Shown here in pieces: positions 16,058-30,179 of a stretch of 30,315 nt of DNA. The position numbers and the translations under genes were made by a program. Every line of letters begins with the position of its first letter. Position 1 is the first letter of the stretch. This DNA comes from a virus, in the IMG/VR virus record IMGVR_UViG_3300037246_000953, positions 1 to 30,315 of that record. One strand, 5' to 3'. Under the pieces are notes generated by a model. That model did no database searches. It was not told the DNA's origin and worked only from the letters and a program-made list of their open reading frames with translations.

Positions 16058-16471
16058 CTAGGCCTCTAGGGTCTTCCGTTCTTCTTCTGTGGCTGTCTTG
16101 GCAATAGAGAACTGTGGTCGCCCTTCCTCTCGGAGCTTCGGGAGCAAACCGAGAAGAGTGTCGTTCCACTTTGTCAGAACCGGAGTCGGCATGAAATCAT
16201 CCAGTCTCTTTTGCTCGCGAGTCATCGTTCCACCGTTCTTGAGCATCGCTTCGTAGCGAGGATTGACCCTGTTGCAGCGAAACTTGTACATCTCCGTTGA
16301 GACATCGTGAACGATTCGAATTTCGGATTCCGTCTTCGTTCCGAAGAAAGCTGTTGCGACGTGACGCATCAGAAGTGCTCCAGGGCGAGTCGCTACTCCT
16401 CCGCAATAGTCGCACCACGGATCCCCGAACCAAGTGCTTACTGTTGCCTTACATCCCTTGCAGGCCGTCAT
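16058..16471 (-). CDS. Small zinc-ribbon protein in the tail operon
   Basis: A 137-aa protein. The N-terminal 25 residues hold two CxxC knuckles (C4, C7 and C20, C23), a clear zinc-ribbon. The rest is mixed helical with a basic centre and a Lys/Glu tail, and I know no family for it. It is wedged between the 688-aa fibronectin-type protein and the nozzle. It could be a small virion or assembly protein with a structural zinc site, or a nucleic-acid-binding factor. The ATG overlaps the upstream TAA (TAATG), so translation is probably coupled. Confidence 0.85.
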   Translation of the reverse strand: MTACKGCKATVSTWFGDPWCDYCGGVATRPGALLMRHVATAFFGTKTESEIRIVHDVSTEMYKFRCNRVNPRYEAMLKNGGTMTREQKRLDDFMPTPVLTKWNDTLLGLLPKLREEGRPQFSIAKTATEEERKTLEA

Positions 16472-18537
16472 TAAGCCCCCAGCTTTCCGATGATCTGCCT
16501 CTCGCCGTTGTCGTCAACAGTACGGATTCCCAACGTGCCACCTGTTGGAAGGGACTTGTACCAAGTCTGCTGCGTCGCAGTCTGATCGATCTTGAACGCG
16601 AAGCGCTGGAAGAGGAACTGCAGCTTTTCTCCATAACCAGAAGTGGATGTCGGAACAGCAGAGAGTTCAGAGTCTTCCTCAGCTACTGCCGGGAACTGGG
16701 TCCACACCTGCTGGCCCCTGCTGATGCTGTAGTCCGTGGTGGCTTCTGGCTGAATGGTCCAAGGCGAGGACAGCTTGACCACAAATGTTGTCCCGTTGTA
16801 GGCCACAATCGGACGGGACTGGCCCGCTCCTGGCCCAGAAATGAGACCAAGGATCCCACCGTTGTAGTAGTCGTCGTTGGCGTCTGCGCCGTCATCGAGC
16901 TTGGCCTCCTGAGGAGTCACATGGGTCTGAAGCGTCCCCTGCCTCAGGTTCTGGCTTCCCAGTGCCCCGCGAATGTCGAAGCCTGAGGCTCCACCGACGG
17001 CCTCGATCCCGTGTCCTGCCCCAATGCCGGTCGCAATGAAGCCGGACTCGTTCGTCAGTCCGCTCGCGTCCGCGTCGAACTGGCTCGTCTTCATGAGCGT
17101 GCGGACGTGAACCGAGAAGTCTCGGAAGATAGCGACCCCGTCCTGATCAATGAACTGAATGATCACATCCTCTCCGGTCAGTTCCGTCGTTCCGTCCACC
17201 ACAAGGCTGTAGACTGTCGTTGAGCCGATCTGAGTGATGGCGTTGTCCGGCTTGCCGCTGTTCGTGGTCTTCAGGACTCCATCGATGTAGATCAGAACAT
17301 CCAGCCCTCCAGACGTGTCTGTTGGGTGAAGACCAGGGAACACCGCAGTCGTCAGGAAGCGGTCACTGGAGTTTGTAGCAACATCCCGGTAGGAGAAGTA
17401 GACGTTCTTGTCCTCCCCCTGGATCGCGTCGTATTCGTAGATGTGCATCTGTGCCTCCTGGGCAGCAATCTCTTCCGGGCTGGCCGGAATGGTGAAGCTG
17501 AACTCATCCCCTTCAATGAAAGTCCAGACAGCCGGTGTTCCAGCTAGATCGTATCGTACTTCCAAGCGGAAGAAGTACTGTTGAGCCTCGGTCAATCCAG
17601 TGAGGACGACCTGGGTTCGCTCGCCGCCCGAATCGACGGTCGTTGGGATCCATGGCGTATCGTTCGCGTAGGGTTCCCCGGAATCAACGTCCCAAGCGAA
17701 TCTCCACTCGGCGTCCGCAAAGCCGTTCCTCGTGACGATGCCGTTGAGGTTGGCCCCACCGTCGTCTGAGACTCCGAACGCCCCTCCGTGAATAGTGCTA
17801 GCAGGCGTCGTACGAACGTCTGGGGCATCTGCCTCCGTTGTCGCGTTGGCGATACCCGAGTAGAAGTCCTTTGTCGGATTCGTTGTGCTAGCCCTGTTGA
17901 GATGAAGCCTGAACACGTACTCTGTCTGAGGAACCAGCCCTGTGATCGTTGTCGTCAGGATCGGCTGAGACACCTCTGACGTCCCAGAGAGAGACGAGGA
18001 TGTCCACGGAAGCCACGCGGAGAGGGGATCAGAGAGCTTCTTGTACTCGACCGTGACGTTCACGTTGGTCGAGAAGGTTCCAAGGTTGACGTTCCCGTCC
18101 ACATCAATGGAGAATGCGGCTTCACCGCTCAGGCTCGGAGTCCCAACCGTCGGAGCGATTGCGTGCGCCTTGACGACGACGGAGGGGTTCTGATCGCGCC
18201 ACACAAAGCCATTCAAGAAGAGGAAAATTGCCCTGTTTCGGAAGGTGATGCTCTGGTCGCAGCGCAAGTCCCTTGGGTCATCAAGGTCGAGCCACCGTCT
18301 GGCATGGCCGGGGCAGCTACCAACATATTTTGTCTGCTGGTCTTCGTTAGCAAAGGCGCTGTCGCTGTACTGAGCCCAGGAGTTGACGAGTTCCATGCAC
18401 CTCTGGTCACCGCACACGGTGCTGCCGCCTTGGCACCCCTTGTCGCTCTGGACCCTACGACGGGTAACGGTGGCTTGAGTTGTCCCAGTGATAGTTCCGT
18501 ACGTGATGATCCCGACGGCAGTAGAGGAAGTTCCCAT
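16471..18537 (-). CDS. 688-aa virion protein with Fn3-like repeats
   Basis: The N-terminus holds five cysteines (C35, C42, C47, C75, C93) in a compact Cys/Trp-rich domain, possibly metal-bound or disulfide-linked. Two fibronectin type III-like repeats follow at about residues 125-235 and 240-350, marked by the closing pattern 'LTGL.p.t.Y.FRL.v' (ITGLVPQTEYVFRLHL and LTGLTEAQQYFFRLEV). A third beta domain lies at 360-480. The C-terminal 200 residues include 'ISGPGAGQSRPIVAYNGTTF', a pattern I associate with phage tail and baseplate proteins. The likely role is a virion surface protein binding host or carbohydrate. It sits upstream of the nozzle gene. Four bases separate the upstream TAG from ATG 18537, without a strong ribosome site. 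Confidence 0.86.
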   Translation of the reverse strand: MGTSSTAVGIITYGTITGTTQATVTRRRVQSDKGCQGGSTVCGDQRCMELVNSWAQYSDSAFANEDQQTKYVGSCPGHARRWLDLDDPRDLRCDQSITFRNRAIFLFLNGFVWRDQNPSVVVKAHAIAPTVGTPSLSGEAAFSIDVDGNVNLGTFSTNVNVTVEYKKLSDPLSAWLPWTSSSLSGTSEVSQPILTTTITGLVPQTEYVFRLHLNRASTTNPTKDFYSGIANATTEADAPDVRTTPASTIHGGAFGVSDDGGANLNGIVTRNGFADAEWRFAWDVDSGEPYANDTPWIPTTVDSGGERTQVVLTGLTEAQQYFFRLEVRYDLAGTPAVWTFIEGDEFSFTIPASPEEIAAQEAQMHIYEYDAIQGEDKNVYFSYRDVATNSSDRFLTTAVFPGLHPTDTSGGLDVLIYIDGVLKTTNSGKPDNAITQIGSTTVYSLVVDGTTELTGEDVIIQFIDQDGVAIFRDFSVHVRTLMKTSQFDADASGLTNESGFIATGIGAGHGIEAVGGASGFDIRGALGSQNLRQGTLQTHVTPQEAKLDDGADANDDYYNGGILGLISGPGAGQSRPIVAYNGTTFVVKLSSPWTIQPEATTDYSISRGQQVWTQFPAVAEEDSELSAVPTSTSGYGEKLQFLFQRFAFKIDQTATQQTWYKSLPTGGTLGIRTVDDNGERQIIGKLGA

Positions 18538-18943: not shown

Positions 18944-20023
18944 CTACCCCCTGAAGGGACGCGTGTATCCGAAGTCAGACGGGAATCGCTCCAAGTACGA
19001 GTCGAGCTTGCCCAGCCGGCGCTGGCCCATTCCGAAGGCCCGCTCCTTCAACATATCAGCCACGCGCTCCTTGATCCTGTTCCGACCCATGTCGTAGCGC
19101 ATCCTGTAGTGATCCGAGAGAGTCTTGTCTTCCCCCTCGCCTGGGGTCGAGTAGGCACGGTGGAGCGCCCACCATTCGACGTACCTGACGGCTCGGTTCG
19201 GGATCTCGAACGCGTGCGCTGACAGCGAAGCTCCCAAACGAAAGAACTCAACTCTGGTTGCGTTCTGGTCTGGAGTGATTCTCTTGATTCCACCGTATTC
19301 CTGAGACGACGCCATGAAGTGCTGCGGAAGCGAACGGATACCACCGTAGGTTCCGAGAATGACCTCCTCGTCGTAGTCGTACGACGTGATCCTTCGAAGC
19401 CCGCCGTAGAGTCCAGTGATCGTCTCCGGCTCGATTGTCGCGGTTGGAACCCCGACGACTCTGAAGGCGAAGAGCCCGTCCTGATCCTGGCTGTAAGAAA
19501 AAACACCTCCGGTTTCTGTCGGGTAAATGTTCCGGCTCTTCCTCAGGTAGCGAGCGTTCTCCGGCTGCAAGCGAAGCCAGTCGTGTGTCACTCGTGATAC
19601 AGAAGCGAATCCTTCAGGCAAGAACCAAGTGGTCGTGCTCGTTGCTGGTTCGTCAGTGGTCGTGAAGAAGTTGGCCTCGTCTGGAGACGTGTGGTTCGCT
19701 GGCCCAGGCACAGGATAAGGTGATCCCTGATTAAGGTAGTCCCGGTCGGACTCCTTCGTGAAGTTGAATTGCCTCAGGATCGGCCAGTCGGTCATGTACT
19801 CTCTCTCGAACGGACGAGTGTAGTTTCCGGTCATCGGCTGGCGGTCGAACATCACCATGTCGAAGAGGCACTCAGACTCACGGCACAGCTTGTCGTAGCC
19901 GTCCTGAACGAAGTCTTGGATCTGGTCACGAGCCCAAACGTCACCAGTCTCGTCGTCCAACTGGCGCATCACTCGGTTCGTGGACTCATCGAACGTGATC
20001 GGTGTCTGGACGTTGACTGCCAT
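18944..20023 (-). CDS. 359-aa head-tail adaptor-like protein
   Basis: The N-terminus reads 'VWARDQIQDFVQDGYDKLCR', which fits the opening helices of podovirus head-tail adaptors and connectors (I-x-x-x-V-x-x-G-Y-x-x-L). The middle is beta-rich with many Arg and Tyr. The C-terminus (about 270-340) is helical and basic, with 'AVRYVEWWALHRAYS' followed by a 'DHYRMRYDMGRNRIKERV' helix; such a closing helix pair is common in this protein class. The TAA of the preceding adaptor-like gene overlaps the ATG (TAATG), so two similar helical adaptors are translated together. One could be the gp11-type adaptor and the other a second gatekeeper. I cannot assign which. Confidence 0.84.
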   Translation of the reverse strand: MAVNVQTPITFDESTNRVMRQLDDETGDVWARDQIQDFVQDGYDKLCRESECLFDMVMFDRQPMTGNYTRPFEREYMTDWPILRQFNFTKESDRDYLNQGSPYPVPGPANHTSPDEANFFTTTDEPATSTTTWFLPEGFASVSRVTHDWLRLQPENARYLRKSRNIYPTETGGVFSYSQDQDGLFAFRVVGVPTATIEPETITGLYGGLRRITSYDYDEEVILGTYGGIRSLPQHFMASSQEYGGIKRITPDQNATRVEFFRLGASLSAHAFEIPNRAVRYVEWWALHRAYSTPGEGEDKTLSDHYRMRYDMGRNRIKERVADMLKERAFGMGQRRLGKLDSYLERFPSDFGYTRPFRG

Positions 20024-20715
20024 TACCTTCTCACTCCCATCCCGCTGAGAGTCCTGCGGGCGCCCATGCGAGGCACCTTGTCTCTCCTCATTCGGTTCTT
20101 CGAGAGATCCTTAAGCTCCCCCTCGTGGCTCTGGTATCTAACCCAGTGCTCCATAGCCTTTTGGGACTCCTTCTTCTGAACGAGCAAGGCGTACATCATG
20201 TAGTGTTCGATGGCCGTCGAGAAATCGGGAGGAAGGTTGGCTGCAACAGTCAGGCCTGTGACCAGACCGCCCTTCTCCTCTACGTGCGGAAGCTGCGAAA
20301 CGTAGTGGATACGAAGAGGACTGTTGTCGGTTCCAGGGACTGGGTAGGTTCCCAGGAAGTAAATGCCACGCGTCCACCACCAACGAGACTCGTTGTCAGG
20401 CTTGTTCTCCCACTGACGACCGAGGGTGTCGTCAAGATCACGCACGGTGACTGGGTGGAGCCACCGCTCGCTGCTTGGGTTCCAGATTGCAGTGATGCGG
20501 AGAACGTCAGGCGGGAGATATCCGCGAAGGTCGGAGTACGCAGCCCACTTCCTGCGCTTGATCGTGACGTAGTTCTCGTTGACCTCTGTCGCCTCGCTCA
20601 GTTCATCGAGCGCGTCGTTGTAGGCAAGAACAAGATCGGCAGTCGCGAAGAATCGGTTGTCTGGATCCTCAAGGCGAATCAACACCCTGTCGATGATCTG
20701 CTGCGCGGTGTCCAT
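20023..20715 (-). CDS. 230-aa head-tail adaptor-like protein
   Basis: Residues 3-45 read as two helices, 'AQQIIDRVLIRLEDPDNRFF' then 'LAYNDALDELSEAT', the usual start of phage head-tail adaptor proteins (gp11/gp4 class). A beta middle part with 'LPPDVLRITAIWN' and 'LRIHYVSQLP' follows. A C-terminal helix with 'LPPDFSTAIEHYMMYALLVQ' matches the pattern 'lp..y..al..yv...ly.kk'. The basic tail (RRDKVPRMGARR) may contact DNA or the portal. It would sit at the portal-tail junction. The upstream Pro/Gln-rich gene ends 15 bases before, and the downstream adaptor overlaps by one base. The ribosome site is weak (GGGTGGG). Confidence 0.84.
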   Translation of the reverse strand: MDTAQQIIDRVLIRLEDPDNRFFATADLVLAYNDALDELSEATEVNENYVTIKRRKWAAYSDLRGYLPPDVLRITAIWNPSSERWLHPVTVRDLDDTLGRQWENKPDNESRWWWTRGIYFLGTYPVPGTDNSPLRIHYVSQLPHVEEKGGLVTGLTVAANLPPDFSTAIEHYMMYALLVQKKESQKAMEHWVRYQSHEGELKDLSKNRMRRDKVPRMGARRTLSGMGVRR

Positions 20716-21814: not shown

Positions 21815-22929
21815 CAGTCTGCCTCCGCGCATGTCCGGCCATCCTCGGTACAGGTCTTGACGTGACCGTGGCAGGCCGCTTGTGCTCTGTTACCTTCCTT
21901 CGGTTCGATAGACTGCCCATCGCACCACCACTGCTGAGCGCCGATATGCTTCGCCTCGCACGGTGGACGCTCTGGATCGCCCTCGTTACGCAGGGGGCAC
22001 CATGTTCGGTTTGTGAAGCCCGCCTCTGTGCAGTACTCGAAGCTCTTCACTCTGTAGGTTGAGTCCCACAGTTGTCCGTGCTCCTTCATCTTGAACTCAG
22101 ACTGGAGCCCTGTTGGATCCGGGTCCGTGCAGACGCCATCGCCAGGAGGAGGATCAACCGGTGGAGGATCGACGGGTGGAGGAGCCGTGTTTACGTGGCA
22201 GCCGACGTACTTCCCGAAGCCGCTGTTCGTCCAGCCGCCATCACCAAAGAAGACTGTGTGGTTCTCTTCCCAGCGACCGTCGTTGCGGAGGATGAACACC
22301 GCTTCGATTCCGCCGAAGGCGCACAGCCCTTCGTTCTGCTCGATCAGCTTGGCAGCGAGCGTCTTCAGGTTCTCCTGCGGGTCGTTGCCCGTGAGGTCGC
22401 CCAGGGTGGTGGTAGCCACCTTGACGCGGGTACGGAACACCTGACTGCAGCCAGTAGAAGGGACCAGGGTGGACTCGACGTCCTTGCAGACGCCGGGTTC
22501 GGGAACCGGACAGCCGATCCAAGCATGACCCAGCCAGCAATCGCAGGTGTCATCCAACGGCTGGATCGTCCCTCCCCTGTCGGTGAAGCTCTGGCACTGA
22601 GGCTGAGGAAGCTCAGGAGGGGGCTCTACGGGGCAGTCAGCGGCCTTCTCGCAGTGCTTGGGGTCGAGCGTCGGGTTGTGGATGCAGTCGCCGCAGGTCA
22701 TGCCCTCGACGTGGCACCAAGGCAGTCCCTGGTCAATCAAGGCCTGACAGGACTCCGAATACGGAGGATCCACTGGCGGCGGCGTCGGCTCCACTGGAGG
22801 CTGCCCGCCGCCAGGAGGAAAGGAGCCACAACCGATGATGGTGCCCCCGATCACCATACAAACGGCGAGAATGAGCACTACCCAGAAAGCCCGAGCCCAG
22901 CGTGGCTCTTCGTACCAGTGATTTCTCAT
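21811..22929 (-). CDS. Cys-rich phage lipoprotein of unknown function
   Basis: A 372-aa protein with one hydrophobic segment (about residues 14-33: FWVVLILAVCMVIGGTIIG) ending in a lipobox I-I-G-C34, so acylation at C34 is expected. A Pro-rich stalk (PPGGGQPPVEPTPPPVDPP) follows, then a Cys-rich domain with CxxC (TCGDC), CDCW and many other cysteines, about 20 in all. A second Pro linker near residue 250 (PPPVDPPPVDPPPGD) separates the C-terminal part. The sequence would stand in the periplasm or outer surface with many disulfides. I know no family. It is too long for a standard outer-membrane spanin. Superinfection exclusion or envelope blocking is possible. ATG 22929 is set by AAGGAGAG and by an ATGA overlap with the upstream hydrolase gene. 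Confidence 0.85.
   Translation of the reverse strand: MRNHWYEEPRWARAFWVVLILAVCMVIGGTIIGCGSFPPGGGQPPVEPTPPPVDPPYSESCQALIDQGLPWCHVEGMTCGDCIHNPTLDPKHCEKAADCPVEPPPELPQPQCQSFTDRGGTIQPLDDTCDCWLGHAWIGCPVPEPGVCKDVESTLVPSTGCSQVFRTRVKVATTTLGDLTGNDPQENLKTLAAKLIEQNEGLCAFGGIEAVFILRNDGRWEENHTVFFGDGGWTNSGFGKYVGCHVNTAPPPVDPPPVDPPPGDGVCTDPDPTGLQSEFKMKEHGQLWDSTYRVKSFEYCTEAGFTNRTWCPLRNEGDPERPPCEAKHIGAQQWWCDGQSIEPKEGNRAQAACHGHVKTCTEDGRTCAEADW
21822..21826 (-). promoter_or_regulatory. Ribosome binding site for GTG start at 21814
   Basis: A perfect GGAGG sits seven bases before GTG 21814. It decides between that start and the ATG at 21832, which would lie upstream of the site. Confidence 0.7.
22144..22184 (-). 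repeat. Short tandem repeat encoding a PPPVD linker
   Basis: About three imperfect copies of a unit near 18 bases (ggtggaggatc type) encode PPPVDPPPVDPPP in the second proline linker of the lipoprotein. Such runs gain and lose units by slippage, so linker length may vary between relatives. Confidence 0.65.
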
Positions 22930-23564
22930 GTTGCTCTCCTTGCGGGAACGATGGCCTGCCCAACGAACTTCCACTCAGTCGCCTCCGTGGCGACGGCGTA
23001 GTCCATGAACTCGTCCGGGTCGATCTCGTTCGGGTCGTGGTTGTTCACACTGATGTTGTCCTCTTCGAGACCGATCAGAATGTGGTTCGAGCACACGACA
23101 CGGGTCTTGGAAACGTGAAGCTTCGAGAAAGGGATCAGCCCACCCGTGAGCTTCTCTCCCAGGAACGTTCCGATCCTCCACCAGCCGTATCTCTCGCCCA
23201 GGCGGCTGTGCCAGTTGTCGGTTGCACGCTTGACGCCTTCGTTACCGGAATAGTTACGCGGTCGAAAAACTGCAACCGCGTAGCCCTGCTCGTTCTTGTG
23301 GCGCTCCCACCAGACGTTCTCCTCGACGTGCCACAGGGACTCCGTGGCGGTCGCGAGAGAGGTGACATCATCTGTCGGAGGGACCATGTAGCCTGGGGTG
23401 AGGATGCCGCCAACGTGGTTGGCCCAGGACTCATCCTCGTTCTTCGAGCGCTCGGCCCAACGAATCAATCGCCCGAAAGTGGCTGTCCCTCGTGCGAAAA
23501 AGACGTCTCCCGGCTGGCAGAATGGGTATCCTGGCTTTCCCGGTGCGTGCTTCCTGATCGTCAT
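22926..23564 (-). CDS. Permuted NlpC/P60-like (YiiX-type) hydrolase
   Basis: A 212-aa protein. Residues 18-24 (PGDVFFA) and 49-54 (NHVGGI) match the opening of permuted NlpC/P60 (papain-like, YiiX/LRAT-type) proteins, with H50 the expected catalytic histidine. The catalytic cysteine would be C158 in 'RVVCSNHILIG', where the family has 'vCSelv'. The order His then Cys is the permuted order, so both key residues are present. The family hydrolyses amide or ester bonds, for example in peptidoglycan peptides or lipids. Directly behind the lysozyme, with an ATGA overlap, it may be a second cell-wall enzyme. The exact substrate is unknown. The open frame extends upstream for 73 codons, but that part only mirrors the lysozyme gene, so I start at ATG 23564 with GGGGG upstream. 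Confidence 0.84.
   Translation of the reverse strand: MTIRKHAPGKPGYPFCQPGDVFFARGTATFGRLIRWAERSKNEDESWANHVGGILTPGYMVPPTDDVTSLATATESLWHVEENVWWERHKNEQGYAVAVFRPRNYSGNEGVKRATDNWHSRLGERYGWWRIGTFLGEKLTGGLIPFSKLHVSKTRVVCSNHILIGLEEDNISVNNHDPNEIDPDEFMDYAVATEATEWKFVGQAIVPARRAT
22934..22941 (-). promoter_or_regulatory. Ribosome binding site deciding the start at 22929
   Basis: AAGGAGAG precedes ATG 22929 by four bases. It selects this start over a longer frame that begins at 22974 and would bury the signal segment. Confidence 0.7.
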
Positions 23565-23980
23565 GAGAATCCCCCTGACTCCATCGCCTTCGCCATACGC
23601 TCGGCGCGACCGGGAGTCTGTCGCGCCCAGAGAGAAGCTCTCATTCCCTTCGCGGCCTTCTTGTAGTCGCCCTTCTGCATGTTCTTCAACGTGTTCTTGA
23701 ACTTGAAAAGGCCGCTGGTCCCCATCTGGTACGCCATTGAAATGACCACCGCCTTGCGATCCTCGTTGAGGAACCTCCACCATGGGATCTCTCCGTCAAG
23801 CTCGGCGCGGATCTTTTCGATGTCCTGCATGAGAAGGAACATCCCCTCTGCCTTGGAGATGCCACCGCCACGGCGCTCATCGACCATTCGGCCAAAGCCG
23901 ATGGTCCAATAGCCGAGGTGGTCCTTGTACGCGTGAGGCTTGAACCCCTCCTCACGGATGAGCAGTTCCTCGATGTTCAT
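23561..23980 (-). CDS. T4-type lysozyme (endolysin), GH24
   Basis: A 139-aa muramidase that cuts the beta-1,4 bond of peptidoglycan. The catalytic triad of T4 lysozyme is present at the same residue numbers: E11 (REEGF), D20 (YKDHLG) and T26 (YWTIGFG). Further family blocks are MAYQMGTSG and WARQTPGRAERM, which match T4 MVFQMGETG and WYNQTPNRAKRV. It is 25 residues shorter than T4 lysozyme (164), with a short gap in the helix region after residue 35. There is no signal peptide, so release needs a holin; a candidate lies at 21304-21498. A tail-borne use cannot be excluded. ATG 23980 has only a weak ribosome site. Confidence 0.95.
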   Translation of the reverse strand: MNIEELLIREEGFKPHAYKDHLGYWTIGFGRMVDERRGGGISKAEGMFLLMQDIEKIRAELDGEIPWWRFLNEDRKAVVISMAYQMGTSGLFKFKNTLKNMQKGDYKKAAKGMRASLWARQTPGRAERMAKAMESGGFS

Positions 23981-23989
23981 CTGAGAGCC

Positions 23990-24292
23990 CTAGTCGGTGT
24001 GGCTCTTACCGAAGTCCTGCTTGCCGCCTCGGCCAGGATGCCACGGAGCGGTCTCCACGATCCAGACCTTCTCGTAGATCTTGTCGGACTCGGAGATGGG
24101 GGTGTCCCCAGTTCCGTAATTCGCGTTCACGGGTCCGATTGGAACGATCTCCTGCGGAGCGGACGGGTTGGTGTCAACGTTGAACCGAACGAGATCGAAC
24201 GGGTTCCGCCTGTAGAAATCCTGTCCGCCCTTGCTGGACTCGATGACGTAGATCGCTGTGTAGCGGTTGCCGCTCTGCTTGTAGTCAGACAT
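23990..24292 (-). CDS. 100-aa hypothetical protein
   Basis: A beta-rich start ('NRYTAIYVIESSKGGQDFYR') is followed by a proline-containing middle, and the end carries a WIVETAPWHPG segment. I do not recognise the family. There is no signal, membrane segment or cysteine pair. GGAGG upstream of ATG 24292 lies inside the last codons of the Cys-rich upstream gene, so translation is coupled. Its place just before the lysozyme hints at a lysis or virion role, but the sequence itself does not say. Confidence 0.83.
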   Translation of the reverse strand: MSDYKQSGNRYTAIYVIESSKGGQDFYRRNPFDLVRFNVDTNPSAPQEIVPIGPVNANYGTGDTPISESDKIYEKVWIVETAPWHPGRGGKQDFGKSHTD

Positions 24293-24293
24293 T

Positions 24294-24683
24294 TCACGCC
24301 TCCTTGGGACGAACGAGAAACTCGATGATTGGCAGCGCGAAGCGGCAATGATGCGTGTCGCACCAAGGGGCCAGACCGCGAGCCAGTACTAGCTTCAGAG
24401 TGTACCTGACAACTGCCGGCATCACCCACTCTGAGTTGATGGGCATCGCCGGAGCGATTTTCATGCTGCCGCACGAATGCAGGAAGACCTCCCCTTCCTT
24501 CTCTGCGGGCTGATCCTTGGCCCACTCTTGCCATGCTCGATACTGCTCGTGTGTGAGCATCCGCTTGCACTTATGGCAGCGATAGAAGTCGTGCTGATGA
24601 ACCTTCTTCCCGTTTGGGAGCGTGATGTCGCCCAACATTTCTTTGTACTGCTTGAGGTTCGAGTAGTCTTCAAGTCTCTTCAC
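24294..24683 (-). CDS. Cys/His-rich (zinc-site) hypothetical protein, GTG start
   Basis: A 129-aa protein with CxxC at 36-39 (RCHKC), a single C71 and a 'WCDTHHC' cluster at 107-113, which together could bind zinc. The middle is helical and charged. No family is recognised. I choose GTG 24683 because it overlaps the TGA of the glycosyltransferase gene (GTGA), the junction type used elsewhere in this window. ATG 24692, three codons earlier, is the alternative; it has AAAGG almost touching it. The gene follows the enzyme cassette, but nothing ties it to the same task. Confidence 0.78.
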   Translation of the reverse strand: MKRLEDYSNLKQYKEMLGDITLPNGKKVHQHDFYRCHKCKRMLTHEQYRAWQEWAKDQPAEKEGEVFLHSCGSMKIAPAMPINSEWVMPAVVRYTLKLVLARGLAPWCDTHHCRFALPIIEFLVRPKEA

Positions 24684-25453
24684 AGCCCCCATCCTTTCGG
24701 TCCCCGTACTTCGGGAATCCCCTGCTTTTCTTTTTCGGCCAGCGCCTTGAGATGCTGCTCCCTCGTGATCACCTCTGGGTCGCCCATGTGCCCAAGCTGA
24801 ATGCCAGTGTCAACGTAGAGTTGGATTCCGCATCTCATTGCTTGGTAGCAGAAGCTTAGGTCTTCTCCGAAGCCGCCAGAGTCGCGGTTGTCTGGGAACC
24901 AGCCCCCACGCTCATTGAAGTCTGGGTGTCGTGCGATTGCGTCGATGAGCTTACTGCTCGTCCAAACAAAGCCGAATCCGCAGGCATCGGCTGGAGCAAG
25001 CGTGTCCTCTGGGTAGTCCTCAACCGAATAGAATCTGCCCCTGGGCTCGCCCTTCTTCGCCTCCTTGAAGATGTAGAAAACTGGCTTGTACTTCCCTCCG
25101 CGATGGTGATAGACGCCAGAAATAAAGTCCGCCTTCAGCCTCTTAGCCTGATAGATCAGCCTGGAAATCGACGCAGGAGAACACCGGATGTCGTTGTCGA
25201 TCCACATGATTCCGTCAGCGAAGTCCGGGCCTGCTTCGATGAACTGTTGGGTCGCCGTGTTGCGAGCAGCCGCGTACCCCATTCGATCTGGTGAGATGTC
25301 GCCAACCCATTCAAGGCCCTTGACCGCTGCGTTCATCATGCTCACTCGAACATCTTTCGCGCATTGACTGTCTGTGTTCCCGTAGCTTGGGACTACAAGG
25401 GCGGCCCTCATCCCCTCCAGGGGCTTAGCCTCTGGTGCGGTTTCAACTGTCAT
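24680..25453 (-). CDS. GT-A fold glycosyltransferase (GT2-like)
   Basis: A 257-aa protein. The start 'MRAALVVPSYGNTDSQC' (from residue 15) is the first beta strand of a GT-A Rossmann-like domain. 'ARNTATQQFIEAG' at 63-75 and 'MWIDNDIRC' at 83-91 give the D86-x-D88 metal and nucleotide-sugar site. 'GEDLSFCYQAMRCG' near 196-209 matches the conserved ED acceptor motif of GT2 enzymes, and 'LGHMG' with H222 closes the domain. It would transfer a sugar from a nucleotide-sugar to an unknown acceptor. It has no membrane helix. The TGA of the methyltransferase overlaps its ATG (TGATG) and GGAGG lies five bases upstream, so the longer open frame from 25552 is rejected. Confidence 0.87.
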   Translation of the reverse strand: MTVETAPEAKPLEGMRAALVVPSYGNTDSQCAKDVRVSMMNAAVKGLEWVGDISPDRMGYAAARNTATQQFIEAGPDFADGIMWIDNDIRCSPASISRLIYQAKRLKADFISGVYHHRGGKYKPVFYIFKEAKKGEPRGRFYSVEDYPEDTLAPADACGFGFVWTSSKLIDAIARHPDFNERGGWFPDNRDSGGFGEDLSFCYQAMRCGIQLYVDTGIQLGHMGDPEVITREQHLKALAEKEKQGIPEVRGPKGWGL

Positions 25454-26013
25454 CACTCCTCCACTAGCTTCATTACGAAGGACATCTCCACCACTACGTT
25501 CAGATAGCGTCTCGCAGCCCGCCTGAACTCTTCTTTGCTGACGCCTTCCCATTCGATAGACGGCCTAAGGTAGACGCACTTCACGTCCCATGGCTGAAGG
25601 GGAATGCCCTGATCCGCGTGCAGCGAAGATGCCCCGCCACCCGACTCGTACAATCGCCTGTCAAACTGTGCCGGCGTTCGCTCTGTCCACGCCTGCTTAT
25701 GGAACGGGTTCGCGTAGAAGGTCTCGCATGTAGCGTACGGGACGATTCCGATGAGGTGCCCGCCCGGCTTAAGCACCCGACCGCACTCGTACATGATGTG
25801 GAACAGTTCCTCTCCAGAAAAATGCTCCAGAGTGTGCGACGCCAAGACAGAATCGTACTGGTTGCTCCCAAGCGGCCACGAGTACCTGAGATCGAAGTGG
25901 ATGTCCGCTGGAACAGACGCGTTGAAGTCCACGTTGAGCCACCCCGGTAGAGGCTTCATGCCACACCCGAGGTTCAGCTTCTCTCCTGTCGCGTACTTCT
26001 CAACTAGATCCAC
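25453..26013 (-). CDS. SAM-dependent methyltransferase, second copy
   Basis: A 186-aa class I methyltransferase. Motif I is 'LNLGCG' (13-18), the acidic ribose-binding residue is D29 (NVDF), motif IV is 'SHTLEH' (59-64), and post-motif 'LKPGG' is at 81-85. This is the Methyltransf_11-type layout that often methylates sugars or small acceptors. I choose GTG 26013 because the radical SAM stop TAG overlaps it by one base (TAGTG) and GAGG lies five bases upstream; a TTG at 26028 is the alternative. It is linked in order with the radical SAM and glycosyltransferase genes. The C-terminus (about 140-186) is basic and helical with no known acceptor motif. Confidence 0.85.
   Translation of the reverse strand: MDLVEKYATGEKLNLGCGMKPLPGWLNVDFNASVPADIHFDLRYSWPLGSNQYDSVLASHTLEHFSGEELFHIMYECGRVLKPGGHLIGIVPYATCETFYANPFHKQAWTERTPAQFDRRLYESGGGASSLHADQGIPLQPWDVKCVYLRPSIEWEGVSKEEFRRAARRYLNVVVEMSFVMKLVEE
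25458..25462 (-). promoter_or_regulatory. Ribosome binding site for the glycosyltransferase
   Basis: GGAGG lies four bases before ATG 25453, inside the last codons of the upstream methyltransferase gene. It decides against the longer open frame. Confidence 0.7.
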
Positions 26014-26831
26014 TAGATCCTCGTGCAATCCCGACAGATGTCGTACTCGTCTGCTCGGTTGTCGTAATGGGTCTCCCTGAACTTCACATAGTTCGCGGAA
26101 CCGTACACCTGACGTAGGGTTTGCCTGGACAGGTCGCCAAAGACCTGCCTTCCGGTTGGGTCAAAGCAGCATGTGGTGACTCGCCCGTCGAAGAGAACGT
26201 AGATGGACTCCAGCGCCCTTCTACACGCCTCGTTCGGCTTCCACGTACGGATGGTCCTTCCGTCGCCCGCCCAGTTGCCCTCGTTGATGCACTTGCCGTG
26301 ACCACTATAGCCGGCCTCGCCCCAACGCTGGTAAAAGCTGATCGCGTCTCTTCCGTTGAACTGGTCTTCGTTCAGGACCGCCCTGACATCGATGCGTGGC
26401 CCGCCCTGGCTAATAGCGTTCTCGATATTAGAGCAGACCTGATCGAACTTCCCCTTGAGACCCATGATCTCTTCGTGCTGCTCTGAGCGCACCGCATTCA
26501 AGCTGACCACGACAGAGTCGAGCCCGACTTTTTTCAGACGGTCGAATCTATCCGGGGTCAGGTAGACACCATTCGTGAAGATCTGGACAATCGAGTCTTC
26601 CCTCGCCACCTGACGGATGTACCAGATGCGGTCGTCAAGCTTCGGGTCGAGAAGTGGCTCGCCCAGGCCATGCAGGATGAATGTCTTGATGTGCTGAATC
26701 GTCACCGCCTCGTCCACGATCTTTCGGAACAGATCCATGTCCATCAGCCCACCCCAGCGCTCAGCGGTCGGATAAACACAGAAGTGGCAAGCAGCGTTGC
26801 AGGTGCTAGTCGTCTCTATCTGGAGTTCCAT
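26013..26831 (-). CDS. Radical SAM enzyme with SPASM-type C-terminus
   Basis: A 272-aa protein. The CxxxCxxC motif (C11, C15, C18 in TCNAACHFC) binds the [4Fe-4S] cluster that cleaves S-adenosylmethionine. 'GLGEPL' at 55-60 is the usual GGEP-type SAM motif. The C-terminus carries a cysteine set C203, C221-C222 and C266-x2-C269, with 'VLFDGRVTTCC', the typical SPASM/Twitch auxiliary cluster region. Such enzymes modify peptides, sugars or other substrates by radical chemistry; the substrate cannot be read from sequence. The two flanking methyltransferases and the glycosyltransferase suggest joint work on one acceptor. I use ATG 26831; a TTG start at 26846 would add five residues. The gene overlaps its upstream neighbour by 26 bases. 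Confidence 0.9.
   Translation of the reverse strand: MELQIETTSTCNAACHFCVYPTAERWGGLMDMDLFRKIVDEAVTIQHIKTFILHGLGEPLLDPKLDDRIWYIRQVAREDSIVQIFTNGVYLTPDRFDRLKKVGLDSVVVSLNAVRSEQHEEIMGLKGKFDQVCSNIENAISQGGPRIDVRAVLNEDQFNGRDAISFYQRWGEAGYSGHGKCINEGNWAGDGRTIRTWKPNEACRRALESIYVLFDGRVTTCCFDPTGRQVFGDLSRQTLRQVYGSANYVKFRETHYDNRADEYDICRDCTRI
26019..26022 (-). promoter_or_regulatory. Ribosome binding site for GTG start at 26013
   Basis: GAGG lies five bases before GTG 26013, within the last two codons of the radical SAM gene. Together with the TAGTG overlap it supports the GTG start. Confidence 0.6.
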
Positions 26832-27420
26832 CTTTCTTGAGCCCAAAGTAGAAGCGCGTGAAAGTCTTGCCGCCTTTGACGGTGATCGTTCGCACTTCGT
26901 TGTGCAGCAGCCTCCACCAGTAGGGTCTTACGTACTCTCTGTAGTCAGAGGCCGGCGAGTTGCCGAGGTTGTAGATGCCAGGAGTCAGAAAGCCGAGAGT
27001 CTTGCCGGTGATGAGCCGGGTATGCCCTGGCTCGTCCAAGCCCCAGTCCTCAAGGGTAGGGCAGGTTCCGATCATCCAGCCTCCGGGCTTGAGCACTCGC
27101 CAGTACTCTCTAAACTCGCGAAAGAAGCCCTTGTAGTCGCCCTGGCGACCGATGTGCTCAAGCACTTCGTACGCGTGGATCTCGTGGAACCTCTCGCTTT
27201 CGAATGGAAGCTGGTTCTTCGGTATACCTGTGCTGCTGACAGGAACCGGCGGGGCGATATGGAGATTGTCGAGATCGAAGACCACGTCCGGCTTGGCGCG
27301 TGGATTCATGTCGAGCGTCGTCCACTCCGTCATGTCGTCTGTTTCTGAGTCGGGGGCAAACAACTGGCGAGCGGGCTTCTTGTGCCCTGTTCCCAGCATG
27401 AGACACTTCTGTTTGGTCAA
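26806..27420 (-). CDS. SAM-dependent methyltransferase, first copy, TTG start
   Basis: A 204-aa class I methyltransferase. Motif I is 'LMLGTGHKK' (7-15), less regular than usual. D37 is the expected ribose-binding residue, 'AYEVLEHIG' at 83-91 is motif IV, and 'LKPGG' at 110-114 follows. The C-terminus (150-204) is basic and Tyr/Trp-rich, possibly an acceptor site. It resembles the 186-aa methyltransferase only in the core. The frame opens with TTG at 27420, four bases after GAGG; the first ATG (residue 8) has no ribosome site and would cut into motif I. It opens the enzyme cassette directly after virion genes. Confidence 0.85.
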   Translation of the reverse strand: MTKQKCLMLGTGHKKPARQLFAPDSETDDMTEWTTLDMNPRAKPDVVFDLDNLHIAPPVPVSSTGIPKNQLPFESERFHEIHAYEVLEHIGRQGDYKGFFREFREYWRVLKPGGWMIGTCPTLEDWGLDEPGHTRLITGKTLGFLTPGIYNLGNSPASDYREYVRPYWWRLLHNEVRTITVKGGKTFTRFYFGLKKDGTPDRDD

Positions 27421-27424
27421 GCTA

Positions 27425-27428
27425 CCTC
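27425..27428 (-). promoter_or_regulatory. Ribosome binding site for TTG start at 27420
   Basis: GAGG sits four bases before TTG 27420 and overlaps the TGA of the upstream gene. It is the main argument for a TTG start. Confidence 0.6.
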
Positions 27429-27882
27429 ACTTGAGTGCAAGGAATTCTCCCAGGGTCAGACCAGTGGAGCCCGATCCCTCTGTCACGATGAGACCGGCTG
27501 AGTTGGTCGGGATCACCTGCACCTGATTCTGCACGAGGATCCCGTTCTCCACATCGAAGATATTGTTGTTCGAGCCCACCAGACGAACCGAGTACTGCGC
27601 GTCTGGGATGAACTGGACCTCGTACACGTCGATATTGCTGGAGTTGGTGGCGTTCAGGAACTCCAGGGTGCGGGCGAACGTGGTCCCCGCAACGGTGACC
27701 TCGGTGTTGTGGCGGTGGCTGTCCTGAAAGACGATCCCCTGCTGGTCATCCTCCAAGTTCTTCACGCTGAGTCTGAAGGCGTCAGTGTCCAGTTCGTACA
27801 GGGTTCCAGTGATCAAGGTCAGGTCCGCCTGTGGGATGCTGATCGTGAAGGGGCTACCCGAGTAGTCAATCGTGATTGCCAT
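27427..27882 (-). CDS. Conserved 151-aa virion protein
   Basis: The sequence pattern 'DTDAFRLSVKNLEDDQQGIVF', 'SHRHNTEVTVAGTTFAR' and 'DAQYSVRLVGSNNNIFDV', then 'NSAGLIV', matches a family I have seen repeatedly near tail genes of environmental phages, usually of unknown function. It is all-beta, with no cysteine and no signal. It precedes the enzyme cassette and follows a coiled-coil gene that it overlaps by 17 bases. A structural role in the tail or as an appendage is probable. The ATG at 27882 has only a weak purine-rich site, so coupling with the upstream gene likely matters. Confidence 0.86.
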   Translation of the reverse strand: MAITIDYSGSPFTISIPQADLTLITGTLYELDTDAFRLSVKNLEDDQQGIVFQDSHRHNTEVTVAGTTFARTLEFLNATNSSNIDVYEVQFIPDAQYSVRLVGSNNNIFDVENGILVQNQVQVIPTNSAGLIVTEGSGSTGLTLGEFLALK

Positions 27883-28255
27883 TTTTGAGACTCTTGATCT
27901 CTGCGTTCAGCCGCTTAACGTTGGCGAGGTACTGCTGCTTCCACTCGTTCATCTTGGTCACTTCGGATTGTAGCATCTGGCTGTTCGCAGCCATCTGCTT
28001 GTTCTGCTTGATCAGTTGGGCTTCCTTTATCTCACACAGCTTCCCCAACTTGTCTCTCTCTACCGTCAGCAGCTTCGCGGCGTAGTTCATCGTATGGGCA
28101 AACTTCTCCAGCCACTGAAGCTGGGATTCAGTGCTTCTCAACCTCCAGCTTGGCTCCCAGGCGATCTTTGGAGGGTGGGTCTCTATGAACCTGTCGTCCA
28201 GCTTGTGGAATCCGTGTGAGACGTAGTCCGTGATCTGGTTGCCTTCTTTACTCAT
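27866..28255 (-). CDS. 129-aa coiled-coil protein
   Basis: Residues 40-125 form a long Lys/Gln/Glu-rich helix with heptad spacing (AKLLTVERDKLGKLCEIKEA, and later NVKRLNAEIKSL), so an oligomeric coiled coil is likely. The N-terminus (1-40) is polar with 'PPKIAWEPSWRLR'. I do not recognise a family. It lies between two structural proteins and overlaps both (8 bases upstream, 17 downstream), so a virion or assembly-chaperone role is likely. The start ATGAGTAA includes the upstream stop TAA. Confidence 0.84.
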   Translation of the reverse strand: MSKEGNQITDYVSHGFHKLDDRFIETHPPKIAWEPSWRLRSTESQLQWLEKFAHTMNYAAKLLTVERDKLGKLCEIKEAQLIKQNKQMAANSQMLQSEVTKMNEWKQQYLANVKRLNAEIKSLKNGNHD

Positions 28256-30179
28256 CGAGTGCCAACATGATATTCACCGTGAGTCCTGCGTTGTTATCCA
28301 TCGTTCCCGAGATTGGGAAGGTCTTGAAGCGGGGTGACGCGGTGGACTTCCTGACGTGACCTTCAAACGGCTGAGACAGAGCCAGCGTCCGCGTGAAGGA
28401 AGCGTTCCCGGCGACGTCCGTGAGTTCCTCGATCAGGACTCCCGTCGAGGTGATGGTGCCCGTGTAGCTCACGGAGCCCGAGTCGGTCGTCAGATAGGTG
28501 TAGCTGTCGTCATCAACAACCGTGAGGATAGTATGCACCCCATTGTTGTCCTCAACCTTGTCGGTGATGCCCAGGATCTTGACCTTCTCTCCAACAACAT
28601 ACCCGTGCGCTGTGTGGACTACGTCCGCAACTGTAGTTGAACGGGTGATCGTCACCGAAGCATCGACTTTGAAATCCCCTCCGGCGGTTGCAATCGCGTA
28701 GACCCGTGCGTTCTCTAGGACCACGTCGGCGTTGTCCTTGACGTTGATCGTGAGAGTCACCGGAGAGAAGACCAGCGTGACTGCGATTCCAGCAGCGTCG
28801 TCCTTGAAGAGGTTCGAGGATGTCGCTGCAGCGCCGTCTACCGTGCAGTCGATGATGTTGCAGTCCAGGGATCCTGATGCAGCTAGGAAGCGGAGGGCTG
28901 CATCGTCCCCATCCTCGGATGTTCCGAACCCAGCAAACTCGATTCCCCGAAGGGTGATGTCAGCGATGATAGCGGTCCCGAAGTCGATGGCGTGATGAGA
29001 AGCCGCTCCCATGGTGAACGTCATGTCGTCCAGCAGTCCGTCTGGGTTCGTGGCGATGTTCCAAAGCAGAGCCCCCGTATCGGCTGCGACCGTGGAGTCG
29101 TTGATGCTGCTCCTCCTCAAGTCGGAGCCAGGGGCGATGATCTGATCGGGAGTGGTAAATACGCTGTCGGTCCAGACGTTGGTCGCGTCGAGAGTGATGA
29201 TGTCACCACGCTCTACGTTGACAGCTACACAGTTGCAAGTGGTGAGCCCAGCGAGATTGATGACTACCGTGTGGGGAGCAATCGCTTTCAGTGTGCCCTG
29301 AGACAGATTGACGATGGTTGTGTCGTCTCCCTCCTCACCAAGGAACTCGTAGAACCCAGCCGCCACTGCTGAAGTGACACCGTCGCTCAGAACCTGCTTT
29401 TCCCACACAACTGTGAAGCCGCTGTCGGTGAACTCTGTGAACCCTGCGCCTGACGCGAAGCCGATGCTCAGCTTGCTCTTGGCAAACAGGATGCCAGAGA
29501 CTTCCCGCAGACCGCCGAACCTGCCCGTCGTGACGACGTCTTCGAAGGCGATGAAGTCTGCGAAGGTTCCCTCGGCTGAGGCTCCGTCTCCCAGCGTCAT
29601 GCGGTAGCCCTGCCCCACGGAGAAGGCGTCCAAGAATCCGTTGTCCGTGTTTCCTGTGATCGTGACGGTGGTTGTCCAGAGGACACCGAATCCGTCCACA
29701 CCAGAAAGCTGAGCGGGGTTCCCTGTGACCGTCCAGACTGCCGTCCCTGCTGTCACTGCATCGAAGTCAGCGGAGGGGTTGATGACGAAGGATGTCCACC
29801 CTCCGACGTAGCCCTCTTGGGGACCGACGTACCAAGTCCCATCTGAATCAGTGGCAAGATCGTCCACCACCTTGATGCCGAACCCGCCATTGGCCTGGAT
29901 GTCCCAAGCAGCGAAGATGCTCATCCAAGCAAAGATGTGGTCGCCGTCGTTGCCGCCACCGGAACTGAATGCGAACGGCTCCCCGATGACATCCGTCGTG
30001 TTGACGGTTTGCCTCTCTACCGCACCGTTGGAGACCTTCTCACCGAGAGACGCAGTACCTTCAATGAAGTTGACCGTGTCAACCTGAAGACCACTGGTCC
30101 ACCCGACGTCCCCATCGGCAAGGATCACTTTGCCGACGTTGGACCCGATGCCGTACCAAGCAACCGACGGAGCCGCCAT
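28248..30179 (-). CDS. 643-aa beta-rich virion protein with FCCH-like module
   Basis: The protein is all-beta and rich in Thr, Gly, Val and Asp. The N-terminal 200 residues carry aromatic-rich blocks such as 'DGTWYVGPQEGYVGGWTSF', known to me from tail or appendage proteins of environmental phages. The middle (300-480) looks like a beta-solenoid with regular Asp/Thr turns. At 513-563 lies a small module with 'HTAHGYVVGEKVKILG' and 'DDSYTYL', related to the one in the nozzle protein and similar to what databases often call an E1 FCCH-like domain. The last 75 residues resemble a beta-sandwich end. A tail appendage or receptor-binding function is probable. GGGAGG merged with the upstream TAG sets ATG 30179. 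Confidence 0.86.
   Translation of the reverse strand: MAAPSVAWYGIGSNVGKVILADGDVGWTSGLQVDTVNFIEGTASLGEKVSNGAVERQTVNTTDVIGEPFAFSSGGGNDGDHIFAWMSIFAAWDIQANGGFGIKVVDDLATDSDGTWYVGPQEGYVGGWTSFVINPSADFDAVTAGTAVWTVTGNPAQLSGVDGFGVLWTTTVTITGNTDNGFLDAFSVGQGYRMTLGDGASAEGTFADFIAFEDVVTTGRFGGLREVSGILFAKSKLSIGFASGAGFTEFTDSGFTVVWEKQVLSDGVTSAVAAGFYEFLGEEGDDTTIVNLSQGTLKAIAPHTVVINLAGLTTCNCVAVNVERGDIITLDATNVWTDSVFTTPDQIIAPGSDLRRSSINDSTVAADTGALLWNIATNPDGLLDDMTFTMGAASHHAIDFGTAIIADITLRGIEFAGFGTSEDGDDAALRFLAASGSLDCNIIDCTVDGAAATSSNLFKDDAAGIAVTLVFSPVTLTINVKDNADVVLENARVYAIATAGGDFKVDASVTITRSTTVADVVHTAHGYVVGEKVKILGITDKVEDNNGVHTILTVVDDDSYTYLTTDSGSVSYTGTITSTGVLIEELTDVAGNASFTRTLALSQPFEGHVRKSTASPRFKTFPISGTMDNNAGLTVNIMLALDE

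Follow-up and report, generated by a model that had tools for sequence, protein, structure and literature searches.

Organization of the cassette

Positions 24294-27420 of the window, the 30,315-nucleotide stretch of viral DNA analysed here, carry five genes on the minus strand, which encode a methyltransferase (MT1), a radical SAM enzyme, a second methyltransferase (MT2), a glycosyltransferase (GT) and a small zinc-ribbon-like protein. MT1 (26806-27420) is a class I SAM-dependent methyltransferase of 204 aa read from a TTG start. The ATG of the radical SAM gene (26013-26831; 272 aa, in an ORF that opens at 26846) is located at 26831 and the stop of MT1 at 26806, which makes an overlap of 26 bases. 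Its own stop and the GTG start of MT2 at 26013 form a TAGTG junction, and the stop of MT2 (25453-26013; 186 aa from GTG, ORF opening at 26028) and the ATG of GT (24680-25453; 257 aa, ORF opening at 25552) are joined in TGATG at 25453. The initial annotation had placed these ORFs here, with the same three junctions, between structural and lysis genes, and all of this can be read in the sequence. Its block of four overlapping genes must nevertheless be extended, since a fifth gene that it did not list (24294-24692; 132 aa with CxxC/CxC), overlapping the GT gene by 13 bases, also belongs to the cassette. In 18 loci, which with few exceptions come from the lineage of the window, the module is adjoined by a homolog of this zinc-ribbon-like protein.

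The neighbouring genes described singly here are also on the minus strand. Structural-type genes (27427-30179) precede the cassette, the nearest of them encoding a conserved probable virion protein of 151 aa (27427-27882) that is 95% identical in the cousin phage L003. Immediately downstream lie a small conserved protein of 100 aa (23990-24292; 91% identical in L003) and a phage lysozyme/endolysin (23561-23980; PF00959, 1.9e-15). A SU10-type head-tail adaptor (20023-20715; PF24175, 7.9e-13; neighbour cluster 11) puts the window in lineage B. The contig itself is without a coat gene, and the cassette is found between fibre-like and lysis genes. Homologs of the upstream virion protein adjoin large structural-type proteins in L022-L032, where the cassette is absent beside them, and therefore the cassette is not a part of that structural module. 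Homologs of the small downstream protein come after GT in L035, L205 and others.

Comparison with L003 gives the limits of the cassette. Synonymous divergence (dS) is 0.09-0.26 in the flanking genes and 0.81-2.82 in the five cassette genes, and the boundaries at 24294 and 27420 correspond to this step; the value for the 24294-24692 gene, 0.81, is cassette-like and unlike that of the next gene. Because dS is high inside and low in the flanks, the cassette has been exchanged between phages, and yet it is under purifying selection (dN/dS 0.15-0.26 against L003). These ratios, together with recurrence of the genes in dozens of contigs, exclude chance ORFs. In L003, the cassette has an additional gene with a sulfotransferase domain.

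Enzymes encoded by the cassette

The Pfam model Methyltransf_11 matches MT2 at 1.5e-7 and MT1 at 2.6e-4, and by Pfam and conserved motifs both proteins have the Gly-rich motif I, the acidic motif II and the predicted Rossmann core of class I SAM methyltransferases, as had been proposed. A search of PDB gave no informative match for MT1. The motif-I Gly, D37 and E85 of MT1 are invariant in eight relatives. Orthologs of MT2 occur mainly in the phage lineage of the window.

The window GT has no match in Pfam, and its L003 ortholog matches Glycos_transf_2 with an E-value (9.5e-4) that does not pass the curated cutoff. PHROG matches of the cassette are to PHROG 1574 (3.7e-16) and to a phage glycosyltransferase PHROG (7.9e-6). 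D86xD88 and the GED motif G196-E197-D198 are invariant in 18 sequences, and the AF2 model (pLDDT 87.8) and Foldseek support a GT-A fold with its DxD and acidic base, so that the earlier reading as a DxD glycosyltransferase holds. Its closest fold in PDB is A197 of STIV (2c0n, E 3.9e-10), to which similarity by sequence is marginal (E 0.015); COLGALT1, LH3 and polypeptide GalNAc-transferases are also matched. Such fold matches do not reveal the acceptor of the GT. No membrane-spanning-like segment was found in the cassette proteins of the window, where no 19-residue stretch exceeds a KD value of 1.18 (2.67 in a control lipoprotein).

The radical SAM enzyme matches Radical_SAM (PF04055) at 7.4e-21 and SPASM at 1.3e-11. 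Its CxxxCxxC motif (C11/C15/C18) and four (plus one) auxiliary cysteines are invariant in 44 relatives, and its AF2 model (pLDDT 95.6) supports the fold of the superfamily with the partial TIM barrel. Thus, the intact CxxxCxxC of the initial annotation stands, while its SPASM-type cysteines have to be read differently. A full SPASM domain has seven cysteines (tested as CX9-15GX4C-CX2CX5CX3C-C) and two auxiliary clusters, but the protein has just C203, C221(C222), C266 and C269 and ends shortly after C266xxC269, although the Pfam SPASM model matches it. A twitch domain is a truncated SPASM domain with one auxiliary-cluster site (PMC6231123), and the C-terminus is predicted to be such a one-cluster domain. 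The best match is BtrN (PDB profile E 2.7e-22, fold E 1.8e-15; 17-20% identity), both domains of which align including the four auxiliary cysteines. From this profile and fold similarity we infer a BtrN-type dehydrogenation, the two-electron oxidation of a carbinol to a ketone; it is known that twitch enzymes do not group by reaction and that function of such an enzyme is unreadable from its sequence (PMC6231123). Fold neighbours also include the peptide-modifying enzymes anSME, EpeE and SuiB. In the model, the 272 aa make up the core and the twitch domain alone, without an N-terminal peptide-recognition domain.

Linkage of the genes in other phages

Linkage was analysed in 49 non-redundant viral radical SAM loci with 2 kb flanks. 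Neighbour clustering joined MT1 with the radical SAM enzyme, partly via fused or misframed ORFs, and counts were taken from HMM analyses instead. An MT1-type methyltransferase and/or a GT adjoins the radical SAM gene in 47 of the 49 loci (control, 1/17) and both do so in 29; MT1 adjoins it in 39. L210 even has a natural MT1-radical SAM fusion, followed by MT2 and GT in the order of the window. Three coat lineages, those of the P22 coat (PF11651), the PHROG 9953 major head protein and the SU10 MCP (PF17236), have the module among their clustered head genes, so that enzyme genes encoded with virion genes, a mark of virion glycosylation, are seen in all three; the same gene set occupies different positions among them. 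Complete intervals from coat to adaptor number 46 in the P22-coat lineage; all of them contain GT, 45 contain GT and MT, and 18 have the radical SAM gene in addition, while GT-MT only is found in 27/46. Since GT and MT occur together in 45 of these intervals and the radical SAM gene in just 18, GT and MT (in the window, MT1) are the core, and the radical SAM enzyme, MT2 and the sulfotransferase are optional tailoring enzymes. As further extra genes, L214 has a PLOD-type GT and a GT2, and L218 a non-homologous Methyltransf_24.

The joint unit postulated at the beginning would have been doubtful if the genes were scattered in related phages or had lost their catalytic residues; neither was seen, as they are linked in other phages and the residues are kept. 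The four-gene order is another matter, because what recurs is linked GT, MT and radical SAM genes, of which the radical SAM gene and especially MT2 are optional. Distances of the cassette genes are correlated, though this co-variation may merely reflect shared phage ancestry. A linked and co-varying unit thus remains of the proposed joint pathway, with a core of GT and MT and an order of reactions that can be suggested as below.

Possible function of the cassette

What does such a cassette do for a phage? Probably, it is a phage-encoded virion-glycan system, in which a capsid protein is glycosylated in the cytoplasm and its sugar is then oxidised, methylated and, in some phages, sulfated. This reading is based on the 47/49 linkage, the fusion in L210, the location among head genes, the folds of GT and the radical SAM enzyme, and the lack of membrane-spanning-like segments. 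A lone GT relative just behind the MCP gene of a T7-like phage agrees with it, as do the apparent glycan genes (judged by eye) around cellular relatives of the radical SAM enzyme in L111 and L112. The head-gene operon would be transcribed late in infection, and the soluble GT-A transferase would put the sugar of a host nucleotide-sugar on a virion protein in the cytoplasm, most likely on the major coat protein or an adjacent decoration or fibre protein. The BtrN-like enzyme may then take hydrogen from a carbinol carbon of the sugar and oxidise it, with the [4Fe-4S] cluster of the twitch domain as electron acceptor, MT1 and MT2 may O-methylate the sugar, and in L003 the sulfotransferase may sulfate it. 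The extra genes in L003, L214 and L218 fit a sugar as the substrate. As the radical SAM enzyme and MT are separable from GT in many phages, the enzymes may have different molecules as substrates. Since non-core enzymes are gained, lost and exchanged, related phages would show different surface glycans, and the benefit might be protection against antibodies, proteases or decoy receptors, or else an adjusted adsorption.

The initial annotation had left the choice between a virion protein bearing a methylated sugar and a glycan of the host surface. The former is better supported by the location among head genes of three coat lineages, the soluble enzymes and the similarity of the GT fold to viral and polypeptide-directed transferases. 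It is unlikely, though worth consideration, that the cassette alters LPS, capsule or teichoic glycans of the host late in infection, so that superinfection is blocked or progeny phages are kept from re-adsorbing to debris. GT-rich host-recognition regions of pelagimyophages, some of which differ by radical SAM cassettes, have been interpreted likewise (PMC7029224), and cellular relatives of the radical SAM enzyme on the MAG contigs L111 and L112 stand among apparent glycan genes (judged by eye); yet neither a membrane-spanning protein nor a flippase or a lipid-carrier transferase is encoded in the cassette, and in unrelated phages its genes are directly behind the coat gene and not with early or lysogenic-conversion genes. 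Rather unlikely, too, is that the radical SAM enzyme and MTs modify side chains of the coat directly, by oxidation, epimerisation, cross-linking or methylation, with the GT acting on the resulting residue or independently. The head-gene location would suit this, as would anSME, EpeE and SuiB among the fold neighbours and the resemblance of the GT to collagen hydroxylysine and mucin-type polypeptide transferases. However, the enzyme lacks the N-terminal peptide-recognition domain, its closest relative BtrN works on an aminocyclitol, and the optional sulfotransferase and extra GTs indicate a sugar.

Variable membership, with the radical SAM gene, MT2 and the sulfotransferase being optional, could also mean that these are unrelated cargo genes (morons) without a common pathway, which accumulate where the late operon tolerates them, but this is highly improbable in view of the 47/49 linkage, the MT1-radical SAM fusion, the same set in three coat lineages, purifying selection and invariant catalytic residues. 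Least of all is a viperin-like (ddhCTP) or another defence or counter-defence enzyme to be expected. The weak PADLOC matches to pVip (3e-11) are confined to the core domain, residues 12-159, and the BtrN profile and fold are far better than viperin-type folds (E 1e-8 or worse), which speaks against membership in that family; the enzyme is linked to GT and MT and has an auxiliary-cluster domain, which viperins are not known to have.

If the virion-glycan system is what the cassette encodes, it may, though we propose this only tentatively, represent a widespread and undescribed way of capsid decoration in uncultured phages: a GT-MT core fixed behind the coat gene would be supplemented with an optional BtrN-like enzyme, sulfotransferase or further GTs to give oxidised, methylated or sulfated head sugars, and would be exchanged as a surface-variation module. 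Its radical SAM enzyme would be the first one known to build a virion glycan, adding this chemistry to virion modification. Glycosylated phage virions are known from few cases only and such modification has hardly been studied in phages. The cassette described here links modification to the head genes of three coat lineages, in one of which nearly all sampled members carry it. That it is near-universal and also swapped between close relatives suggests strong selection on the capsid surface, and the cassette bears on phage clearance and adsorption.

Relation to known systems

Temperate phages carry gtrABC serotype-conversion clusters, GT modules that alter a surface glycan, lie next to int/att and combine a membrane flippase with a membrane-bound GT. 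The cassette has neither these genes nor that neighbourhood, and with no membrane-type segment in its proteins it is not of this type. In mycobacteriophages of cluster O and relatives, phage GTs modify the capsid and the tail tube, with an effect on the antibody response (Freeman et al., 2023, via PMC11600133, PMC13313380). There, GT genes are beside an O-methyltransferase gene as in the window, but the GTs are three in tandem, the hosts are actinobacterial, and no radical SAM enzyme is mentioned; homology was gauged indirectly, through the absence of an MT1 relative among GenBank phages. STIV A197, the best PDB fold match of the GT, is likewise a viral GT-A enzyme; its gene is essential and the STIV coat is glycosylated (PMC4187194, PMC10551542), but STIV is an archaeal membrane-containing virus, and the accessible parts of these papers describe no methyltransferase or radical SAM partner. 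Pelagimyophages share GTs and radical SAM cassettes, which are in their host-recognition region, but they are large myophages with LPS-type GT8 genes and without a fixed GT-MT-radical SAM set behind the coat gene (PMC7029224). BtrN, the 2-deoxy-scyllo-inosamine dehydrogenase of butirosin, resembles the window enzyme in domains and auxiliary cysteines and differs in its low identity and in that the latter is encoded in a phage head operon.

A literature search, in which subscription papers were thinly covered, gave no report of the GT-MT-radical SAM set, and no cultured phage with the whole set was found among GenBank phages. There, the radical SAM enzyme has no close relative (matches, chiefly in Campylobacter phages, reach 27% over half at best), MT1 has none, and relatives of the GT are just 23-30% identical. 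In the P22-like cousins PBR31, DSL-LC05 and MW202483 in GenBank, the coat and adaptor genes are separated by small hypothetical genes instead of the cassette. Most genomes retrieved in a scan were metagenome bins, whose relatives of the radical SAM enzyme are distant and have no MT1 or GT beside them according to the HMMs. In a T7-like spring-water phage, a relative of the GT is located, alone, just behind the MCP gene.

Linkage of the cassette genes

All the major genes of the window lie on the minus strand. After structural-type genes (30179-27427), the cassette is transcribed from the class I methyltransferase gene MT1 (27420-26806) through the radical SAM gene (26831-26013), a second class I methyltransferase gene, MT2 (26013-25453), and the glycosyltransferase (GT) gene (25453-24680) to a fifth gene for a 132-aa CxxC protein (24692-24294); genes for a 100-aa protein (23990-24292), lysozyme (23980-23561) and, farther along, an SU10-type adaptor (20715-20023) follow. 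The overlapping junctions first read from the sequence, of 26 bases, TAGTG and TGATG, are indeed present, and a 13-base overlap also joins GT to the fifth gene. Pfam recognizes Radical_SAM and SPASM in one protein of the window and Methyltransf_11 in two; GT is identified by PHROGs and fold, and its ortholog in the cousin phage contig L003 weakly by Pfam.

Three scans for radical SAM across 2.9 million viral contigs recovered 80 proteins scoring above 200 bits, which fall into 73 clusters at 90% identity; linkage was counted on the 49 clusters with at least 2 kb on both sides. An MT1 homolog lies within 1 kb of the radical SAM gene in 39 of these loci and a GT homolog within 1.5 kb in 37; both are found in 29 and neither in two. 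In 17 control viral loci, whose radical SAM genes show only distant similarity, MT is found in none and GT in one. The initial annotation had proposed searching phage genomes for the same gene order, and the order recurs in contig L210, where a single 478-aa open frame (6392-7828) fuses MT1 with radical SAM and is followed by an MT2 homolog and then GT. Pairwise distances of radical SAM, MT1 and GT correlate (permutation P 0.001), with r 0.81, 0.94 and 0.80 over 44 loci and 0.64-0.74 within the 30 loci taken as lineage A, which shows co-inheritance that is not separable from phage ancestry. In a Verrucomicrobia MAG, a homolog of radical SAM (L113:755-1903) is lengthened at its N-terminus by a long stretch that looks TPR-like by eye, and its gene adjoins a class I methyltransferase-like gene.

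Position among head genes and composition

Neighbour clustering divides the loci into three phage lineages, in which scaffold and small-protein names are assigned by position. The order in lineage A is terminase, portal, scaffold, P22-type coat (PF11651), GT, MT1, radical SAM and P22 gp4-like adaptor. Lineage B, in which the window is placed through its adaptor, has terminase, portal-like, scaffold-like, a second major head protein (PHROG 9953) and a small protein, then MT1, radical SAM and GT in variable order, and an SU10-type adaptor; in the window, the cassette also has extra genes on its flanks, fibre-like and for lysis. In lineage C, terminase is followed by radical SAM and MT1, SU10 portal, scaffold-like protein and SU10 coat (PF17236), and in L174 and L247 a weak GT-like gene lies past the coat.

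A separate scan seeded with the lineage-A coat gives an estimate free of radical SAM selection. The best 80 coats comprise 68 non-redundant ones, 46 with a complete coat-to-adaptor interval; since these coats are the closest to cassette-carrying seeds, the fractions are not valid for all P22-like phages. GT is present in 46/46 intervals and GT with MT in 45/46, radical SAM accompanies them in 18 of those 45, less than half, and no interval is empty (0/46). The cassette is absent from GenBank P22-like cousins at 34-38% coat identity. In the annotated environmental T7-like phage L330 (MW202711.1), a distant GT relative (4001-4630) stands alone, without MT or radical SAM, one gene past the MCP, with the MCP region on one side and tail tubular protein A on the other.

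The core of the cassette is thus GT and MT1, and the other enzymes are optional. MT2 is mostly confined to lineage B, and in L218 a non-homologous Methyltransf_24 gene adjoins radical SAM, with no MT1 detected there. The cassette is enlarged in one phage head cluster (L214:5442-10526), where two radical SAM genes and MT1 are joined by three GTs: the usual one, a GT2 and another with a PLOD-type domain. The CxxC protein is present in 18 loci, almost all of lineage B, where this small, zinc-ribbon-like product (24294-24692; CxxC...CxC) is a conserved fifth member; it might serve as acceptor, scaffold or regulator. Glycan pathways combine one attaching enzyme with changeable tailoring enzymes, and the make-up of the cassette appears to resemble them.

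Predicted enzyme activities

Structure prediction and fold search, also suggested initially, gave BtrN and STIV A197 as first matches for radical SAM and GT. Across 44 radical SAM sequences, the cysteines of the RS cluster never vary, nor do four auxiliary ones and an adjacent fifth; the enzyme therefore has a twitch domain. Profile comparison favours BtrN (2.7e-22; next solved family 4.3e-9), as does the AF2 model (pLDDT 95.6; E 1.8e-15, TM 0.71/0.78). BtrN oxidises a cyclitol alcohol, and its fully ligated auxiliary cluster probably takes the electron (PMC9012708). Since the other neighbours include enzymes that act on sugars (BlsE, DesII) as well as on peptides (anSME, EpeE, SuiB), sugar dehydrogenase is the leading, not the sole, reading; that the enzyme is an alcohol dehydrogenase acting on a virion sugar is a tentative proposal.

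DxD and GED of GT are invariant in 18 sequences, and its model (pLDDT 87.8) matches collagen and mucin-type polypeptide transferases after STIV A197. PMC10551542 describes A197 as essential and the coat of STIV as glycosylated, with A197 substrates not established. No membrane-like segment was found in any cassette protein of the window. This is expected of enzymes that work on coat protein within the cytoplasm, and it sets the cassette apart from surface conversion of the gtr type.

Exchange and proposed role

Of the related contigs found, one is near-identical to the window (99.8%), and L003 is an informative cousin that keeps the gene order with an extra gene in the MT1/radical SAM gap (225 aa, Pfam Sulfotransfer_1 2.3e-8). 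Against L003, flanking genes have dS 0.09-0.26, whereas cassette values are 0.90 (MT1), 1.54 (radical SAM), 2.82 (MT2), 1.26 (GT) and 0.81 (CxxC protein), with sharp edges at 27427-27882 (dS 0.20) and 23990-24292 (0.26) and dN/dS of 0.155-0.263 inside. Therefore, the cassette has been swapped as a unit among closely related phages while purifying selection acts on it, a combination that would be more in keeping with a module for surface variation than with passive cargo.

Most likely, GT would attach a host-derived sugar to a capsid protein; methyl and oxidised groups would then be added to the linked sugar, and sulfate in some phages. On balance we favour a product that sits on the virion. 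In mycobacteriophages, virion glycosylation with an O-methyltransferase gene nearby is described (Freeman et al. 2023, as cited in PMC11600133). The literature searched gave no report of a radical SAM partner in virion glycosylation, of head-gene linkage across three coat lineages or of cassette exchange, and 50,697 GenBank phage records yielded no MT1 relative. The cassette would therefore be a variant of virion glycosylation.

Other features of the window

The 27427-27882 protein has no match in Pfam or PHROG; its family (MAITIDY...VGSNNNIFDVENGILVQNQVQVIPTNSAGL) adjoins large structural-type proteins in 11 more viral contigs (L022-L032) of differing gene content. Upstream of the cassette lies a 643-aa protein (28248-30179), whose L003 ortholog shares 32% identity with residues 702-808 of a 1070-aa protein (12844-16056); the common region is likely a repeated virion or carbohydrate-binding domain. 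A 688-aa protein (16471-18537) has a purple acid phosphatase N-terminal/Fn3-like domain. An ORF at 22926-23783 runs out of frame over the lysozyme gene (23561-23980); translation probably begins near 23615, so that the real overlap is short.
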